Assembly (NCBI GenBank): GCA_003647385.1
Contig: QMMT01000014.1
Location: 1 to 13,031 of the forward strand
Length of the DNA stretch: 13,031 bases
Reading direction: 5' to 3'
Source of the DNA: Deltaproteobacteria bacterium
GTDB lineage: Bacteria; Desulfobacterota; Desulfobacteria; Desulfobacterales; Desulfobacteraceae
Positions 6,992-13,031 of this stretch are shown here, in pieces. A program made the translations under genes and the position numbers. The notes below the pieces were generated by a model, which worked only from the letters and a program-made list of their open reading frames with translations, made no database searches and was not told where the DNA came from. Position 1 is the stretch's first letter. Each line of letters starts with the position of its first letter.

Positions 6992-9367
6992 ATGAAGATC
7001 TATACAAAAATAATTATTACAACACTTCCCATCGTCTTTTTCTTCCTTATTGCAACCGTTGGCATCTCTTACTATTTTTCACGCAACGCCCTGACAGAAC
7101 TTGCAGAAGAGTGGCTGTCCACCAGGTCTTCTGAAGCTTTGGAAATTGTAAAAAAACAGGAGGGCATCCTGCATAGATACGGTTTGGAAAAAATACCTGC
7201 CAGTATTTTAAAAGCCAAGCTGGATGCCATAAAAGAGATCTCTTCCATTAAAATTGGAAAACAAGGTTACCTTTTAGGAATTGATACCCATGGTGCCATT
7301 ATATTTCATCCCAACAAATATCTGGTAGGCATGGATGTCAGCAATGAAAACTGGTTTCAACAGCTGAAAAAAGAAAAAAACCGTATATTTTTTACACTTG
7401 AAAATGAAAAAAATATTGGTATCTACAACTTTTTCCCTGAATGGGACTGGTTCCTGTTCGCCGTAGACCCTGAAAAAGAAGTGTATGGACTGGCAGACCG
7501 GATGAAGCCTTACCTCCTATCTCTTGGTGTCATTGCAGCCATAATTGTTTCTTTTGCACTGATGCTGTTAACACAGCGCATCATACAGCCTTTATTATCT
7601 CTGGTAAGGGGTGCTGCAAGGATTGGGAAAGGTGACCTGGAAACAAAGATCTCAATAAAAACCCATGATGAGTTTGCCGACCTTGCCAGAGAATTCAACC
7701 GGATGACTTCCCGGTTAAAAGAGACACAGACTGCCCTGAAATACAGTGAAGAATATTTCAGGGCCTTGATTGAGAACGCCAATGATGTTGTCATTATTAC
7801 TGACTCTAAAGGAAATATTATTTACACCACTCCTTCCATAAAAAAAATCCTTGGGTATGGCACCAGCGATTTGATTGGCACCAGTATATTCGAGCATGGC
7901 CATCCTGATGAAAAAAAAGAACTTATTAAAATATTTCATAAACGAATCCGATCCGAGATTCCCACGCATGCTGTCGAAGCAAAGTTCAAGCATCATGACG
8001 GATACTGGTGCACCATGGAATACATCAGCAAAAATCTCCTGGATCACCCGGCTGTCAATGGATTTGTTATCAATTCAAGAAATATCAGCATGAGGAAAAA
8101 AGCTCAGGAGGCTTTAAAAAAATCCCATGAGGAGCTTGAACAGCAGGTTAACTTAAGAACCAAAGAGCTTATTTTATCAAATCAAACCCTGATCAATGAA
8201 ATCCAGACACGGAAAATCAAAGAGACTGAGTTGGAAAAGGCCAATCGTGTAAAGAGTGAATTCCTTGCCAATATCAGTCATGAAATCCGAACGCCTTTAA
8301 ATTCTGTTATCGGTTTTAGTGAACTATTATCAAATATGATAACCAAAAAAGAAGAAAACAGCTATTTAAATGCCATCCAACTTGCCGGGAACAATCTATT
8401 GTCTCTAATTAATGATATTCTCGACCTGTCAAAAATGGAGGCCGGTAAACTTGAACTCAATAAGATTGTTGTAGATATCAATGCGTTATTTGATGATATC
8501 TGTCAGATATTTGAATCAAAAATCAAAGAAAAGCCCATACGATTTATTAAGAATCTGGATGATCAAATCTCCTCTTCACTTCTTTTGGATGATATCCGTC
8601 TTCAGCAGGTGATGGTAAACCTGCTGGACAATGCCATCAAGTTCACAGACAAAGGCTATGTTAAACTGACAACAAAAATAATAAAATCATACCCAGACAA
8701 CCGTAACCTGAAGGTCACACGCAACCCCAAGGTCACACGTAACCTGAAGGTCACACGTAAAATTGATCTGGCGATTTCCATCGAAGACACCGGCATCGGG
8801 ATTCCTGTAGACAGACTGAATATTATTTTTGACTCGTTTCAACAAGCCTCTTCACGAACCAGCAGGGAATATGGCGGAACCGGGCTTGGGCTTTCCATAT
8901 GCAGACATCTTGTGGAATTAATGGGCGGCCGGATTCAGGTTGAGAGTACGGAGGGAAAGGGCACTGTTTTCAACGTTATTCTACCTGAAATTGAAATCAG
9001 TCAACGCACTGCTGACATCCAAAAAATTCCGTCAAATACTATGGACACCAGCAAGGAACCGAAAAATTCGAAAAAAATACTATCAACAGAACTATTAAAA
9101 AAGTATTGCGCTGAAAACAAAACCTTAAAAAACCAGATCAAGTCTCATATTTTCCAGCTCATACCCGAATTTCAAGAGGGTATAAAGATAAAAGATGTTC
9201 AACATATCATAGAAAATATTATTTCTATCGGGGATAAATTTCACATACCGGAACTCACAGAATTCGGCCGGGAACTTTCTGACTATGCCCAATCCTTTGA
9301 TATCGAAAAACTGGATATAAACTTACAAAAACTTTACAATATTTTAAAATCAATCCCCTTAAATTAA
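6992..9367 (+). CDS. Membrane Cache-HAMP-PAS sensor histidine kinase
   Basis: A 791-residue sensor kinase. In order: membrane helix at about 8-28; periplasmic single Cache domain at about 30-170 (GKQGYLLGIDTHGAIIFHP); second helix 174-194; HAMP at about 195-247; PAS at about 252-370 (YFRALIENANDVVIITDSKG); coiled coil 370-418. The HisKA domain has phosphoacceptor His430 in SHEIRTP, and the HATPase_c domain has N-box NLLDNAIKF (Asn547), EDTGIGIP and YGGTGLGLS. All catalytic boxes are present. Two things are odd. Residues 571-590 are three copies of a six-residue repeat encoded by the 18-bp DNA repeat. The last 95 or so residues look like the HPt-like helical tail of hybrid kinases, but no receiver domain precedes them and no HPt-type His is evident. 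It follows the binding-protein gene by 10 nt with no clear Shine-Dalgarno, suggesting coupled translation. No response regulator is adjacent. Confidence 0.94.
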   Translation: MKIYTKIIITTLPIVFFFLIATVGISYYFSRNALTELAEEWLSTRSSEALEIVKKQEGILHRYGLEKIPASILKAKLDAIKEISSIKIGKQGYLLGIDTHGAIIFHPNKYLVGMDVSNENWFQQLKKEKNRIFFTLENEKNIGIYNFFPEWDWFLFAVDPEKEVYGLADRMKPYLLSLGVIAAIIVSFALMLLTQRIIQPLLSLVRGAARIGKGDLETKISIKTHDEFADLAREFNRMTSRLKETQTALKYSEEYFRALIENANDVVIITDSKGNIIYTTPSIKKILGYGTSDLIGTSIFEHGHPDEKKELIKIFHKRIRSEIPTHAVEAKFKHHDGYWCTMEYISKNLLDHPAVNGFVINSRNISMRKKAQEALKKSHEELEQQVNLRTKELILSNQTLINEIQTRKIKETELEKANRVKSEFLANISHEIRTPLNSVIGFSELLSNMITKKEENSYLNAIQLAGNNLLSLINDILDLSKMEAGKLELNKIVVDINALFDDICQIFESKIKEKPIRFIKNLDDQISSSLLLDDIRLQQVMVNLLDNAIKFTDKGYVKLTTKIIKSYPDNRNLKVTRNPKVTRNLKVTRKIDLAISIEDTGIGIPVDRLNIIFDSFQQASSRTSREYGGTGLGLSICRHLVELMGGRIQVESTEGKGTVFNVILPEIEISQRTADIQKIPSNTMDTSKEPKNSKKILSTELLKKYCAENKTLKNQIKSHIFQLIPEFQEGIKIKDVQHIIENIISIGDKFHIPELTEFGRELSDYAQSFDIEKLDINLQKLYNILKSIPLN
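8702..8760 (+). repeat. 18-bp tandem repeat, copy A (three units, inside the Cache kinase gene)
   Basis: Units at 8702-8719, 8720-8737 and 8738-8755 read CGTAACCTGAAGGTCACA, CGCAACCCCAAGGTCACA and CGTAACCTGAAGGTCACA, followed by a partial CGTAA. Each unit is an imperfect palindrome (GTAACCT, centre GA, AGGTCAC). Because 18 is divisible by three, the frame is kept and the units encode RNLKVT or RNPKVT. They sit between the N-box and the G1 box of the kinase ATPase domain. The same repeat recurs at 9469-9504 and 11447-11487. Confidence 0.95.
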
Positions 9368-10122
9368 ATTTCTTTTTTAGGAAAAATCAAAGACCTGATC
9401 CAGCCAAAAAGAGTGTTGTTTTGTAAATTTTCTTTTTCTGCTGATTCAAGGAGGTGTGTCATTTTACTTGTGACCTTCAGGTTACGTGTGACTTTCAGGT
9501 CATCGGTATCTGAAAACCTGTCTTTTCGCGTGATGATGGATTGATCCGGGTCAAGTTTTTTAATTATTTTAGCAGGGTTTCCAACAGCAATGACATTGGC
9601 GGGGATATCACAAGTCACTACTGATCCTGCACCAATAATACTGTTTTTACCAATGGTCACCCCCTTACAGATAATGGCACTGTCCCCCACCCATACGTTC
9701 TCTTCCAGAATAACGCAGGAAACCTCTTTAGACGGCATGGATCTGTCGTAAATGCCATGCCAGTCTGAATCGGTAATATAGACATGGCTTGCCAGCATGC
9801 AGGAGTCTGCGATTAAGATATGGTTAGCGGCACTGATCCTGACCCCGGGAGAAATCAGAACATGATCACCAATAATAATCCCCCGTATATCTTTTTTGTC
9901 CGACCACACCGTCAACCGTGTCTTTTTATCAGAACATCCTAAAAGAGTAATATTATTCCCAATGCTGACCGGGCCGCCAAATATTTCAATGTGCCAGGGC
10001 TTTACAATGAACGGATTTTTTCCAAGGGACTTCAACTGGGGAGAAAGTTTATGGCGGATATAGAAATGCAGGAATCTGTACCATATCTTTTTGATATAAT
10101 AGGGTCTATAATCTTTTATCAA
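9364..10122 (-). CDS. Left-handed beta-helix (hexapeptide repeat) acyltransferase
   Basis: A 252-residue O- or N-acyltransferase of the trimeric hexapeptide-repeat class (maltose/colanic-acid acetyltransferase-like). It probably transfers acetyl from acetyl-CoA to a sugar or lipid-linked acceptor. Hexapeptide rungs run from about residue 50 to 190: IGDHVLISPGVRI, then VWVGDSAIICKGVTIGKNSIIGAGSVV, ending with the typical VGNPAKIIK. The likely catalytic His is His122 in DSDWHGIYD. The start appears to be TTG at 10122, overlapping the TGA of the upstream gene (TTGA), so translation is probably coupled; no ATG lies in the conserved N-terminus. Residues 207-220 are two copies of the repeat peptide (DDLKVT, RNLKVT), in the tail after the beta-helix. 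Its stop overlaps the kinase stop by four bases. The acceptor substrate is unknown. Confidence 0.9.
   Translation of the reverse strand: MIKDYRPYYIKKIWYRFLHFYIRHKLSPQLKSLGKNPFIVKPWHIEIFGGPVSIGNNITLLGCSDKKTRLTVWSDKKDIRGIIIGDHVLISPGVRISAANHILIADSCMLASHVYITDSDWHGIYDRSMPSKEVSCVILEENVWVGDSAIICKGVTIGKNSIIGAGSVVTCDIPANVIAVGNPAKIIKKLDPDQSIITRKDRFSDTDDLKVTRNLKVTSKMTHLLESAEKENLQNNTLFGWIRSLIFPKKEI
9469..9504 (-). repeat. 18-bp tandem repeat, copy B (two units, inside the acyltransferase gene)
   Basis: On the minus strand the units are GATGACCTGAAAGTCACA (9504-9487) and CGTAACCTGAAGGTCACA (9486-9469), followed by AGTAAAAT. They are inverted relative to copy A but lie in the sense direction of their own gene, in the same reading frame as copy A (DLKVT-RNLKVT). 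Both copy A and copy B are followed by GTAAAAT, which hints at a defined end of the element. Confidence 0.93.
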
Positions 10123-11168
10123 TTGACAAGACCCGTATAAACAAATCCATCCCAGGACTTATGACAAAAAAGACCTGAGGCAGGTGTTAAACCGTACACT
10201 GCATCTGCTGCCATTAGCACCACTGCATTGGTCCATGAAATTTTTTCTTCCGGCCAGATCACCATATCAGGATAAGTGTACCCACACCAATATGTTTTAT
10301 CATCATATATTCTGTCCTGGATCCAGGAGAATACAATATTGGCTTTTTCAACACATCCCATACCATTTAACGCAAGAACAAGTTCCGAGGTTTCCGCAAT
10401 GGTCACCCAGGGCTGATCAGATACGCATCTTGCCCCTTGTCCTTCTATGACATACTTGTTCCAGTATTTTTCAATTCTGCGTTCTGCTTTTTCTCCTGTC
10501 AGTGCACCGCTTAATATGGGGTAAAACCAGTACATGGAAAACCGGGATTTGCTGACATTATAATGATGGATATCTTCCCTGATTGATTTACCCAGTTTCT
10601 CAAAGGCTGTTTCCCATGAAATTTTGCGCTTTCCAAGGATGCCTGCAATGGTCAGGGCACATTTTAAACTCATGAAAATGGAACTTGCACCTGTTAAAAG
10701 AGACATGGGATCAACCTTGCCTTCAGGACTCTTGGCCCAATAGATCTCACCGCTTTTTGTCTGGAGGCTGAGGGCATAATTAATCCCTTTTTCCATCGTC
10801 GGCCACATTAGTTCAAGAAACGCCGTGTCCTTATTCATTAACCAGGTATGAAAAAGGCCTACCGAGATATAGGCCGCCATATGTGTTTCACAGGTTCGAT
10901 CCCCTGGTTTCCCGTTGATATAGGAAGAATAGCAGGAACCATCCGAATTCTGGATATTTCGCAGCCATTCAAATGCCAGGTATGATGCATCAAAGCGCTT
11001 TCCAATATTCAAACCCATAATTGTTTCTACAAGATCCCAGGGATCTGTTTTCCCGTCTGTATGCCAGGGGATATCTCCGGTTCCCTTTTGAAGCGTCACT
11101 ATAAAACTAACAACTGAGTCGATGTTCAGGGTATCGGAAGGTCGGATCTTGGGGTCTTTTAGCGCCAT
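10119..11168 (-). CDS. Alpha/alpha-toroid protein, prenyltransferase-like, function unknown
   Basis: A 349-residue protein rich in aromatic residues and helices, resembling bacterial proteins loosely annotated as prenyltransferase or phenyltransferase domain proteins, with a squalene-cyclase-like alpha/alpha-toroid fold. Visible features include FIVTLQKGTGDIPWHTDGKTDPWD near the N-terminus, AFEWLRNIQNSDGSCYSSY, LSLQTKSGEIYWAKSPEG, the SRFSMYWFYPILSGALTG segment, CVSDQPWVTIAETSELVLAL and YPDMVIWPEEKISWTNAVVLMAADA. The repeated Q...GEI.W and QNSDGS motifs match the toroid repeats. There is no signal peptide or membrane helix, so it is cytoplasmic. The ATG at 11168 has GGAG 7 nt upstream, better than an in-frame TTG at 11171. 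It is translationally overlapped with the acyltransferase, implying a shared role, perhaps in surface glycan or lipid processing. The activity itself cannot be assigned. Confidence 0.82.
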   Translation of the reverse strand: MALKDPKIRPSDTLNIDSVVSFIVTLQKGTGDIPWHTDGKTDPWDLVETIMGLNIGKRFDASYLAFEWLRNIQNSDGSCYSSYINGKPGDRTCETHMAAYISVGLFHTWLMNKDTAFLELMWPTMEKGINYALSLQTKSGEIYWAKSPEGKVDPMSLLTGASSIFMSLKCALTIAGILGKRKISWETAFEKLGKSIREDIHHYNVSKSRFSMYWFYPILSGALTGEKAERRIEKYWNKYVIEGQGARCVSDQPWVTIAETSELVLALNGMGCVEKANIVFSWIQDRIYDDKTYWCGYTYPDMVIWPEEKISWTNAVVLMAADAVYGLTPASGLFCHKSWDGFVYTGLVN

Positions 11169-11256
11169 CAAATGTCTCCGGTTAAAAAAATATCCTTAAA
11201 AATTACAACGTCACATTATCAGGACAATTTTTTTTTTACAAGAAATTTGAACTCTT

Positions 11257-11279
11257 ATTCATGAATGGCTATTCATATC
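11257..11279. promoter_or_regulatory. Overlapping inverted repeats, FadR(TetR)-like operator candidate 1
   Basis: ATTCATGAATGGCTATTCAT contains three alternating half-sites: a 10-bp perfect palindrome (11257-11266) overlapping a perfect ATGAAT/ATTCAT inverted repeat with a 4-bp centre (11261-11276). The 18-bp stretch 11262-11279 resembles the Bacillus-type FadR operator (from memory, TGAATGAnTAnTCATTCA) at 12 of 16 defined positions. It lies 94 bp upstream of the toroid gene start and could act on either divergent unit. Confidence 0.4.
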
Positions 11280-11400
11280 AATATTTTTTTATTTAATGAT
11301 CTGTCCACTGAACAAACTTTAAGAAACGATTATATCTAACAGTTTGAAATTGAATGCATATTTTTCTGATTGATCTAAGGAGTTTCCTAAATTATTTTAC

Positions 11401-11428
11401 TTGACATCCTGGATGATTATCTGTTAAT
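11401..11428 (+). promoter_or_regulatory. Candidate promoter of the 3-hydroxyacyl-CoA dehydrogenase gene
   Basis: A perfect -35 TTGACA at 11401-11406 is followed after 16 bp by GTTAAT at 11423-11428 (4 of 6 to TATAAT). The leader would be roughly 90 nt. The -10 is weak, so this is moderately supported. Confidence 0.5.
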
Positions 11429-11430
11429 CA

Positions 11431-11448
11431 AAAATGAACACTCATTCA
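11431..11448. promoter_or_regulatory. FadR(TetR)-like operator candidate 2
   Basis: AAAATGAACACTCATTCA starts 3 bp after the predicted -10 of the beta-oxidation gene. It has a perfect right half-site TCATTCA and a 5-of-7 left half-site when compared with TGAATGA-n4-TCATTCA. Its position over the transcription start suits repression relieved by acyl-CoA, as known for TetR-type FadR regulators. No such regulator gene is in the window. Confidence 0.45.
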
Positions 11449-11487
11449 TAACCTAAAGGTCACACGTAACCTAAAGGTCAAACGTAA
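11447..11487 (+). repeat. 18-bp tandem repeat, copy C (two units, in the leader of the FadN-type gene)
   Basis: Units CATAACCTAAAGGTCACA (11447-11464) and CGTAACCTAAAGGTCAAA (11465-11482) are followed by CGTAA. They share the consensus with copies A and B but carry A for G at the palindrome centre (CTAAAGG versus CTGAAGG). The array begins at the end of operator candidate 2 and ends 24 bp before AGGAGG, so it would be transcribed in the mRNA leader. Confidence 0.92.
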
Positions 11488-11522: not shown

Positions 11523-13031
11523 ATGATAAGAAAAGTCAGAAAGGCTGCAGTCATCGGGTCTGGAATTATGGGAGGGGGTATTGCTGCCCTTCTTGCCGCT
11601 GCCGGTGTAAAGGTGCAGCTTTTGGATATCGTTCCATTTGATTTAAAAGAGGATGAAAAAAAAGACCCGGCTGCCCGGAACCGGATGGTAAAAGCAGGGC
11701 TTGATGCAGCGCTGGCCTCAGCTCCTTCTCTGTTTTTCAACAAAAAAGATGCCGGCCTTATCTCCATTGGCAATCTTGATGATGATATTGAAACACTGGC
11801 CGACTGCGACTGGATCATTGAAGTTGTTGTTGAAAACCTTGGTATCAAAAGAGATCTTTTTACAAAAGTCGAAAAATTCAGAAAACCGGATTCCATCGTT
11901 ACCACCAATACATCCGGTATTCCTTTGAAAGACATTTGTGAAGGCTTTCCCCAAAATTTTAAAGAACATTTTATGGGAACCCACTTTTTTAATCCTGTCC
12001 GTTATATGCACCTTCTTGAGTTGATCCCGGGCGCTGATACGCTTCCTGAGATCCTTGAATTTGTTGCCGCGTTTGGTGAGAAAAACCTGGGTAAAGGGAT
12101 TGTCTGGGCAAAGGACACCCCCAACTTTGTGGGTAACAGGATCGGTATCCAGGGAATTGGAGCCATCATGAAAGCCATGGTGGAAGATCAGATGACCATC
12201 CCTGAAGTGGATGCCATATTCGGTCCTGCCCTTGGCCGGCCCAAAACAGCCATTTTTAAAACAGTTGACCTGGTTGGCCTTGATACGGTGATCCATGTCT
12301 GTAAAAATTCCTATGAACTCTGCCCGGATGATGAGCAGAGAGAGGCATTGGTCCTGCCTGAGTTTATCGGGGAAATGGCCCAAAAAAATCTTCTGGGTAA
12401 TAAGACACAGGCAGGTTTTTATAAAACCGAACTGACTCCTGAGTGGAAAAAGCTGCGAAAAGTTCTCAATCCCTCTACCATGGAGTATGAAGACCTTGTA
12501 AGGCCGAGCTTTCCCTGCATTGATGAAGCAAAAAAGAAAGCCACCTTAAAAGAAAAAATAGACTGCGTTCTCAAAGGGGATGACAAAGGGGCAAAATTTG
12601 CCTGGAAAATGGCTGCCAACAGTTTTTTGTATGCTGCCAACAGGGTTCCTGAAATTGCCGATACCATCATTGAAATCGACAACTCCATGAAATGGGGATA
12701 CAACTTTGAAATGGGCCCCTTTGAACTCTGGGATGCCTATGGCGTTAAAGAGGCAGTTGAACGGATAGAAAAAGAAAGCCTTGATATTCCCGCCCATGTG
12801 AAAGAGATGCTGGCAAAGGGCAATACCTGCTTTTACAAACTTGAGAACGGTATCAAATATTATTATGATTTTGCATCCGCTTCTTACAAAGAAATAGCTA
12901 TCAGCAAAAACATGGTTTCCATTGCAGCGGCTAAAGGCAATAACAAGACGGTTATGGAAAACAACTCTGCCAGTCTTGTGGACATTGGGGATGACGTCTT
13001 CTGTATTGAATTTCATACAAAGATGAATGCC
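11523..13031 (+). CDS. 3-hydroxyacyl-CoA dehydrogenase / enoyl-CoA hydratase (FadN-type), C-terminus beyond window
   Basis: A bifunctional fatty-acid beta-oxidation enzyme; 503 residues are visible. It oxidises 3-hydroxyacyl-CoA with NAD+, and the crotonase half would hydrate enoyl-CoA. The Rossmann motif GSGIMG is at residues 12-17. The catalytic His154 in GTHFFNPVRY pairs with Glu166 in LELIPG, the 12-residue spacing expected for this family, and DTPNFVGNRI (198-207) closes the NAD domain. A second C-terminal dehydrogenase lobe follows (WGYNFEMGPFELWDAYG). The window ends in SLVDIGDDVFCIEFHTKMNA, the opening strand of the crotonase domain. Dehydrogenase-first order matches FadN-type proteins of about 800 residues rather than FadB/FadJ, where crotonase comes first. 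ATG 11523 has a perfect AGGAGG 5 nt upstream. The promoter and FadR-like site upstream suggest fatty-acid control. Confidence 0.93.
   Translation, partial: MIRKVRKAAVIGSGIMGGGIAALLAAAGVKVQLLDIVPFDLKEDEKKDPAARNRMVKAGLDAALASAPSLFFNKKDAGLISIGNLDDDIETLADCDWIIEVVVENLGIKRDLFTKVEKFRKPDSIVTTNTSGIPLKDICEGFPQNFKEHFMGTHFFNPVRYMHLLELIPGADTLPEILEFVAAFGEKNLGKGIVWAKDTPNFVGNRIGIQGIGAIMKAMVEDQMTIPEVDAIFGPALGRPKTAIFKTVDLVGLDTVIHVCKNSYELCPDDEQREALVLPEFIGEMAQKNLLGNKTQAGFYKTELTPEWKKLRKVLNPSTMEYEDLVRPSFPCIDEAKKKATLKEKIDCVLKGDDKGAKFAWKMAANSFLYAANRVPEIADTIIEIDNSMKWGYNFEMGPFELWDAYGVKEAVERIEKESLDIPAHVKEMLAKGNTCFYKLENGIKYYYDFASASYKEIAISKNMVSIAAAKGNNKTVMENNSASLVDIGDDVFCIEFHTKMNA

Follow-up and report, generated by a model that had tools for sequence, protein, structure and literature searches.

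The small dispersed repeats (SDRs) of cyanobacteria are described as units of some 20 bp that occur in tandem in varying number and are possibly mobile (PMC2884548, citing Elhai et al. 2008). One of them, SDR5, is reported to be inserted precisely between nucleotides 3 and 4 of the highly iterated palindrome HIP1 (PMC4390886, citing Elhai et al. 2008). Rickettsia palindromic elements, about 150 bp long, are mobile and lie in frame within unrelated protein genes (PMC10969869). Repetitive extragenic palindromic sequences (REPs) and REP doublets forming hairpins (REPINs) are short, dispersed imperfect palindromes, sometimes arranged as inverted pairs, and their movement is proposed to be aided by the REP-associated tyrosine transposase, RAYT (PMC3116915, PMC3733652); REPs are given as hairpins of 20-40 bp with a GTAG or CGTC tag (PMC3733652). 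The TAACTGA direct repeats of Beggiatoaceae, Cyanobacteria and Bacteroidetes start with TAA and are found mostly in leaders, some on stop codons; their mobility was considered, the mechanism not being evident (PMC4679880). Miniature inverted-repeat transposable elements (MITEs) are 70-300 bp long (PMC3733652) and have terminal inverted repeats and target duplications (PMC10969869). Here we analyze an 18-bp repeat first seen in a stretch of 13,031 bases (the window), which is contig 14 (QMMT01000014.1) of the 3.07-Mb, 81% complete draft genome of a deltaproteobacterium.

The unit, TAACCTGAAGGTCACACG, is probably (at roughly 0.8) a very small, non-autonomous mobile DNA that is moved by an enzyme acting in trans, multiplied locally by duplication, and kept where its copies are tolerated. 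Whole units are inserted, mostly in exact 18-bp steps, with a preferred target, in both orientations and into one another, and arrays grow locally.

The repeat unit and its arrays

The preliminary description of the window reported tandem repeats at three loci and in both orientations. This is borne out: six places match the 18-mer with at most three mismatches (0.01 expected by shuffling), and Tandem Repeats Finder independently finds period-18 arrays at 8702-8760, 9464-9500 and 11449-11487. The start of the moving unit is TAACC rather than CGTAACC. The unit forms an imperfect dyad that, in its best rotation, is matched at 12 of 18 positions. Array A (8704..8757, forward strand) has three units, the middle one degenerate, and the right flank TAAAATTG. 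It lies in a Cache/HAMP/PAS histidine kinase gene (6992..9367, forward strand), inside the HATPase_c match (residues 533-666). Array B (9467..9502, reverse strand) has two units and, on that strand, the right flank TAAAATGA; it occupies the C-terminal part of a hexapeptide acetyltransferase gene (9364..10122, reverse strand), beyond the hexapeptide match (residues 137-171) of this hexapeptide-repeat transferase. The two units of array C (11449..11484, forward strand, right flank TAATTGTT) lie in the leader of a 3-hydroxyacyl-CoA dehydrogenase gene (11523..13031, forward strand) that continues past the window end. No Rfam match was found in the window.

One sense frame of the unit is open and reads NLKVTR; the other two contain TAA or TGA, just as first described, and two of the three antisense frames are open. 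Both genic arrays encode this peptide in frame, as NRNLKVTRNPKVTRNLKVTR in the kinase and as DDLKVTRNLKVTS in the acetyltransferase, which bears out the shared frame originally given as RNLKVT. The GTAAAAT that had been pointed out after A and B is present, but its TAAAAT is better taken as the insertion target than as repeat sequence.

Copy number and taxonomic range

The repeat extends far beyond these three loci. The host genome holds 41 places (25 forward, 16 reverse) within three mismatches of the 18-mer, against one for a reversed-pattern control. Within the genus, 25 of 26 genomes have a 16-mer core with at most one mismatch (range, 0 to 70 copies), as do 5 of 32 other genomes. Of 389 genomes sampled across the class, 38 matched a 21-mer with at most two mismatches; 24 of these are among the 26 of the genus, 10 belong to the rest of the family and 4 to the rest of the order. 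The control for this 21-mer gave zero matches across all 389. Scanning genome contigs with the same 21-mer yielded at least 115 stretches. Among the 80 listed, 43 are titled Desulfobacula, and the other 37 carry the titles Desulfobacterales, Desulfobacteraceae, Deltaproteobacteria or unspecified proteobacteria, except L061 and L111 (L and G numbers denote loci and genomes). These two, titled Syntrophaceae and Patescibacteria, respectively, may be naming or binning errors. The copy-rich genus is apparently Desulfobacula, and abundance of the 18-mer is limited to one clade, with sparse occurrence elsewhere. In a tree of one syntenic region the copy-poor G002, G013 and G017 group, as do six copy-rich genomes; the deeper forks are weak.

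The census comprises 178 de-duplicated arrays in 195 loci. Single units account for 121 arrays, two units for 37, three for 15 and four for 5, the count being the whole-number length in units, by which a 71-bp array is taken as three. Distinct flanks define 111 arrays, corresponding to 103 locus clusters.

Filled and empty sites in orthologues

Had the peptide been an ancestral protein feature, as the preliminary description allowed, orthologues would carry it at the same place; unit-free orthologues occur at all three sites of the window. Presence and absence at single sites are stated here without polarity of gain or loss. At the site of array A, orthologues have no unit (L172 and L195, both G019), one (L194), two (L193 and L175, both G020) or four (L167). 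At that of array B the number is zero in L171, L169, L179 and L167, one in L191, two in L170 and L173, and three in L177/L097; L193, L175 and L054 have two units plus 3 extra bp. The site of array C is covered with both flanks by 14 other rows, of which 12 are unit-free (e.g., ATTCATAATT), one has a single unit (L174) and one about two, one of these with a small deletion (L183); a one-unit row reads ATTCA[TAACCTGAAGATTACACG]TAATT. The AT-rich spacer beside array C varies by 1-3 bp among relatives.

A palindrome-like stretch at 11435-11448, which reads TGAACACTCATTCA in the window and TGAATACTCATTCA or close to it in the aligned relatives, is conserved in the dehydrogenase leader; the insertion of array C lies at the edge of this stretch. 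The stretch looks like the operator of a fatty-acid regulator.

Beyond the window, an empty orthologue was identified for 17 filled sites at 16 loci, stretches of G008 being added. The residual length difference is 0 in 14 pairs, -1 in two and +1 in one. When pairwise length differences were taken unfiltered, with the flanks compared separately, 171 of 244 were exact multiples of 18, in a tally of up to eight orthologues per site in which related rows recur. Two cases are especially clean. L157 reads TTTAGTCTA[unit]TAAATAG where L216 reads TTTAGTCTATAAATAG. L127 and L070, with flank identity of 95-98%, differ in the DNA polymerase III delta subunit, YENNKMSLKNM in one form and YENN[NLKVTR]KMNLKNM in the other. 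Likewise, a relative of the window's third gene in L183 has an additional unit, IRENIH[NLKVTR]NYNVSK, where the window has IREDIHHYNVSK. With copies throughout the genome and unit-free orthologues, the earlier notion of a small spreading repeat that proteins tolerate is supported in outline.

In L069 and L081, single units stand 6 bp apart and in opposite orientation in the same gene region of two relatives, the site being empty in L060. Apparently these are two separate insertions within a few bases.

Insertion target, ends and nesting

The unit inserts before YAA, mostly TAA. At 38 flank-distinct sites whose retrieval was independent of the right flank, that flank is TAA in 25, CAA in 4, TGA in 3, CAG in 2, and TCA, TTA, TAG and GGA in one each, so that YAA makes up 29 of 38. 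The background in the same loci is 2.0% for TAA and 4.3% for YAA. Taking one site per locus cluster (n = 35) gives TAA 22, CAA 4, TGA 3, CAG 2 and four others once each. The base preceding the insert is A at 64% and T at 25% of 107 sites.

Both CAG flanks belong to nested sites, in which an antiparallel unit sits in the centre of another as CTT[TAACC...]CAG (CTT^CAG). Such nesting was found at four loci (L005, L007, L039 and the orthologues L146/L149/L123), L123 having two nested units versus one in L149. L289 shows a similar nesting with one extra base. There is no clear target-site duplication. None is seen at the nested sites or in L194, where CAAAATTG follows the unit and the empty orthologue L172 has GCAAAATTG, and these sites favour an 18-bp insert.

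Position in genes and reading frames

With open reading frames (ORFs) of at least 80 aa, 45 of the 111 flank-distinct arrays lie within an ORF, 29 at an ORF edge and 37 outside; a second classifier gives 47, 27 and 37, and one array per locus cluster (n = 103) gives 44, 26 and 33. Such ORFs contain 88.6% of random positions and 83% of random TAAA, and 9.9% and 14.7%, respectively, lie outside. Thus coding places are depleted among arrays but common.

The NLKVTR frame is used by all 26 sense arrays that lie inside ORFs; this is necessarily so, since arrays in the other sense frames would count as edges. The 19 antisense arrays within ORFs are divided between the two open frames (12 and 7), and antisense ORFs with lengths down to 80 aa may be spurious. 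In 58 of the 111 arrays an ORF of the same minimum length enters the unit: it meets an open sense frame in 19, the unit's own TAA in 15, a truncating sense frame in 8, an open antisense frame in 14 and a closed antisense frame in 2. In 11 of the 15 ORFs that end at the unit's TAA, TAA also follows the insert. In these cases the insertion was thus made at a TAA stop codon and leaves the protein unchanged. Within six ORFs of the window, TAA occurs 10 times in stop phase (a number inflated by one approximate ORF start), 69 times in truncating phase and 82 times in open phase, so stop codons are over-represented among the insertions. The unit is tolerable because its 18 bp make six codons with one open sense frame, and because its TAA start does not alter a protein at a TAA stop codon.

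Nine of the ten hosts scanned are supported by Pfam: histidine kinase, hexapeptide transferase, FeoB, apolipoprotein N-acyltransferase, penicillin-binding transpeptidase, glycogen debranching enzyme, FMN oxidoreductase, DNA polymerase III delta and an ABC transporter. The tenth, the window's third gene, had no Pfam match.

Units in L277 (G009:C40) and in L157, whose empty counterpart L216 is from G008, sit in what may be a 23S rRNA gene, in its 3' part. In L277 this gene would lie on the reverse strand, where a sequence reads like the sarcin-ricin loop. L277 gave no Rfam match at either threshold, and three conserved 23S strings were not found in it.

Local growth of arrays

Arrays also grow by local duplication. 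In 44 arrays with distinct left flanks, adjacent units have 18 non-consensus bases in common, against 5.6 in shuffles, none of 2000 shuffles being as high. Adjacent units thus share variants, which indicates that slippage or unequal exchange adds units once one is present. In L070 and L127 the sub-family TAACATAAAGGTCACACG occurs three times within arrays, a local variant being copied.

Mechanism and alternatives

The trans-acting enzyme would attach the unit at a (T)TTTA cut in the strand opposite TAAA and leave the target site unduplicated. A single active strand may be involved, on which the target is TTTTA^ and the unit reads CGTGTGACCTTCAGGTTA, its TTA end being like the target. Head-to-tail entry into arrays would be possible because the unit's own start is TAA. 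Selection would then keep the tolerated copies, i.e., those in intergenic places, at stop codons, and in the loops and termini of proteins, read in the NLKVTR frame or in one of the two open antisense frames. On the simplest view the repeat is selfish or neutral.

For a three-unit array, the RNA fold of the strand starting CGTGTGACC is -25.8 kcal/mol, versus -15.0 for its complement (z -5.8 vs -1.7); the DNA fold of the same strand is -8.3 versus -4.6 kcal/mol (z -1.9 vs 0.2). The target end and the folding of arrays suit a single-strand transposase or templated extension. We tentatively propose, at clearly less than even odds, that the 18-bp unit itself is transposed, with a non-Y1 single-strand transposase or synthesis templated by a short RNA adding 18-nt units at TTTTA and also at the centre of an antiparallel unit. 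If true, the unit would be among the smallest mobile DNAs known.

Several results weigh against a mobile unit moved by such an enzyme. The 17 empty-site pairs were chosen to have a residual within 3 bp, and 73 of the 244 unfiltered length differences are not multiples of 18. At TAA targets a 15-bp insert with a 3-bp duplication is indistinguishable from an 18-bp insert. Nesting leaves the mixed unit order of L076 unexplained, and the partial first units of L007 and L012 do not fit the simple picture. A single flanked unit folds no better than shuffles on either strand, though single units are the majority. Most of the genomes compared are incomplete metagenome bins. The search for the enzyme among the genomes of the genus covered two families, PF01797 and PF00078, and found none; neither family tracks copy number. 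PF01797 gave no match in 9 of the 26 genomes, some of them incomplete bins, including four that are copy-rich (G000, G010, G011 and G023, with 21-32 copies); G011 and G023 are both 96% complete, and the family is present in the copy-free G014. PF00078 has no match in the copy-rich G011 and G020, is present in the copy-poor G002 and G017, and has none in the copy-free G014. In the closed genome G008:C1, 30 reverse-transcriptase matches, mostly of equal score, are clustered at 2.36-2.43, 3.05-3.26 and 3.59-3.64 Mb, and five further partial matches are spaced 19-24 kb apart.

These enzyme distributions bear on two specific routes. One is RNA-templated addition: with a short RNA as template, a reverse transcriptase would lengthen the nicked 3' end TTTTA, and re-annealing of TTA would add further units, as in telomerase. 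It would yield head-to-tail arrays of 18n without duplication, the target end TTA is the unit's own 3' end on that strand, and the three-unit CGTGTGACC strand has the far better RNA fold. That strand, however, is the product and not the template; no template locus was found, open-ended extension would not be expected to leave most single units with exact ends on both sides, and the presence of PF00078 is out of step with copy number. Such templating is unlikely. Movement as single-stranded DNA by a Y1 HUH transposase of the IS200/IS605 or RAYT type, as proposed for REP/REPIN, seems more doubtful still, since the unit has no GTAG-type tag and PF01797 is missing from the four copy-rich genomes while occurring in G014, which has no copies. 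In its favour are the lack of a clear target duplication, the fixed target on one strand, the unit end like the target and the strand on which arrays form a hairpin (DNA, as above); all four resemble IS200/IS605-type chemistry.

Two further accounts dispense with movement of the unit. Single copies could have been recruited as regulatory binding sites, and the imperfect dyad, the intergenic excess over random positions and random TAAA, and the abutment of copy C on the conserved palindrome-like leader stretch would suit a selected binding-site family. As an explanation of the whole, such a family, or an ancestral peptide motif, is largely refuted and very improbable, given three different frames in unrelated proteins, copies in phage gene clusters and unit-free orthologues. 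An ordinary minisatellite, slipping in place and never moved, is scarcely credible as a complete account and remains a part of the story only for array growth. As in variable-number tandem repeats, the unit is tandem and its number differs between close orthologues (four versus two in L106/L134, three versus one in L077/L141), and adjacent units share variants. But the unit is not confined to a locus of origin: the 18-mer stands at about 100 unrelated places with unit-free orthologues, and most arrays (121 of 178) are single units.

Phage and transposon passengers

Two viral contigs carry units. L214 has genes for portal, terminase, minor head and head protease proteins, and one unit provides the stop codon of the protease gene; L215 encodes major head and tape-measure proteins.

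A transposon of about 4.6 kb (L279, L297 and G195 generally; L159, L285) has a unit at the start of its integrase gene, and G195 has 11 unit places. Pfam gave no match for the integrase (P0001). Among the 120 listed of its 681 homologues, the motif DDRF/L lies at offset 6 in 54, 8 in 14, 12 in 16, 14 in 3 and 18 in 2; 28 lack it in the first 60 residues, and 3 have it at other offsets. Some rows at offset 12 lack the NLKVTR motif. The multi-copy G195 transposon, every listed copy of which has the repeat only as part of its integrase start, was considered as a source of the repeat, since its copies contain it, and rejected: most listed integrase homologues have no unit, the offsets change in steps of six residues, and the transposon ends are apparently unrelated to the unit. 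For these reasons the unit is taken as a passenger of the transposon.

Elsewhere in the window, a 160-aa ORF at 1256-1738 has a DUF772 transposase domain only and is probably a truncated insertion sequence.

Comparison with known systems

The DNA strings of the unit and its peptide had no match in the literature searched, which mostly excludes subscription journals, and within the same scope nothing on repeats of Desulfobacula appeared among the matches listed by repeat and genus names. The unit offers a comparative system for the way in which repeats near 20 bp in length, which are too short to be ordinary transposons, reach new places. With defined ends, a target, empty and nested sites, and genomes graded from 0 to 70 copies, its enzyme can be sought by comparative genomics. 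Through it, unrelated proteins, DNA polymerase III delta included, also acquire one and the same hexapeptide, and its TAA start shows how insertions can enter stop codons unnoticed.

The likeness to Rickettsia palindromic elements put forward in the preliminary description is fair as an analogy, in-frame insertion in unrelated genes being common to both as those elements are described. Membership fails by size, 18 bp against a palindrome of about 150 bp, and the unit is not a Rickettsia palindromic element. Those elements are not known to be tandem. MITEs, by the sizes and ends given for them, share with the unit that they are small non-autonomous mobile DNA; the Desulfobacula unit has 18 bp and no clear duplication. 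REP/REPIN sequences of the GTAG types are described with a linked Y1 gene, whereas the unit has neither tag and no Y1 link. Nor is it mainly extragenic: 45 of 111 arrays (44 of 103 clusters) lie within ORFs, some antisense ones possibly spurious. The TAACTGA repeats are, like the unit, short, tandem and TAA-starting, but have 7 bp and are closed in all forward frames, and the part of PMC4679880 that treats them gives no empty-site evidence.

The closest analogue, nearer than the Rickettsia elements, is found in the cyanobacterial SDRs, which as described are alike in size, tandem arrays and precise insertion at a fixed target. We know of no enzyme for them. The Desulfobacula unit, too, is about 20 bp long, dispersed in one genome and often tandem, and its presence or absence at orthologous sites is precise (residual 0 in 14 of 17 pairs; 171 of 244 differences multiples of 18). 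It differs from SDR5, by description only, in targeting YAA and not HIP1, in belonging to another phylum, and in having many in-frame copies in proteins. By this comparison the 18-bp unit would belong with the very small mobile repeats of the SDR kind, as a distinct variant.

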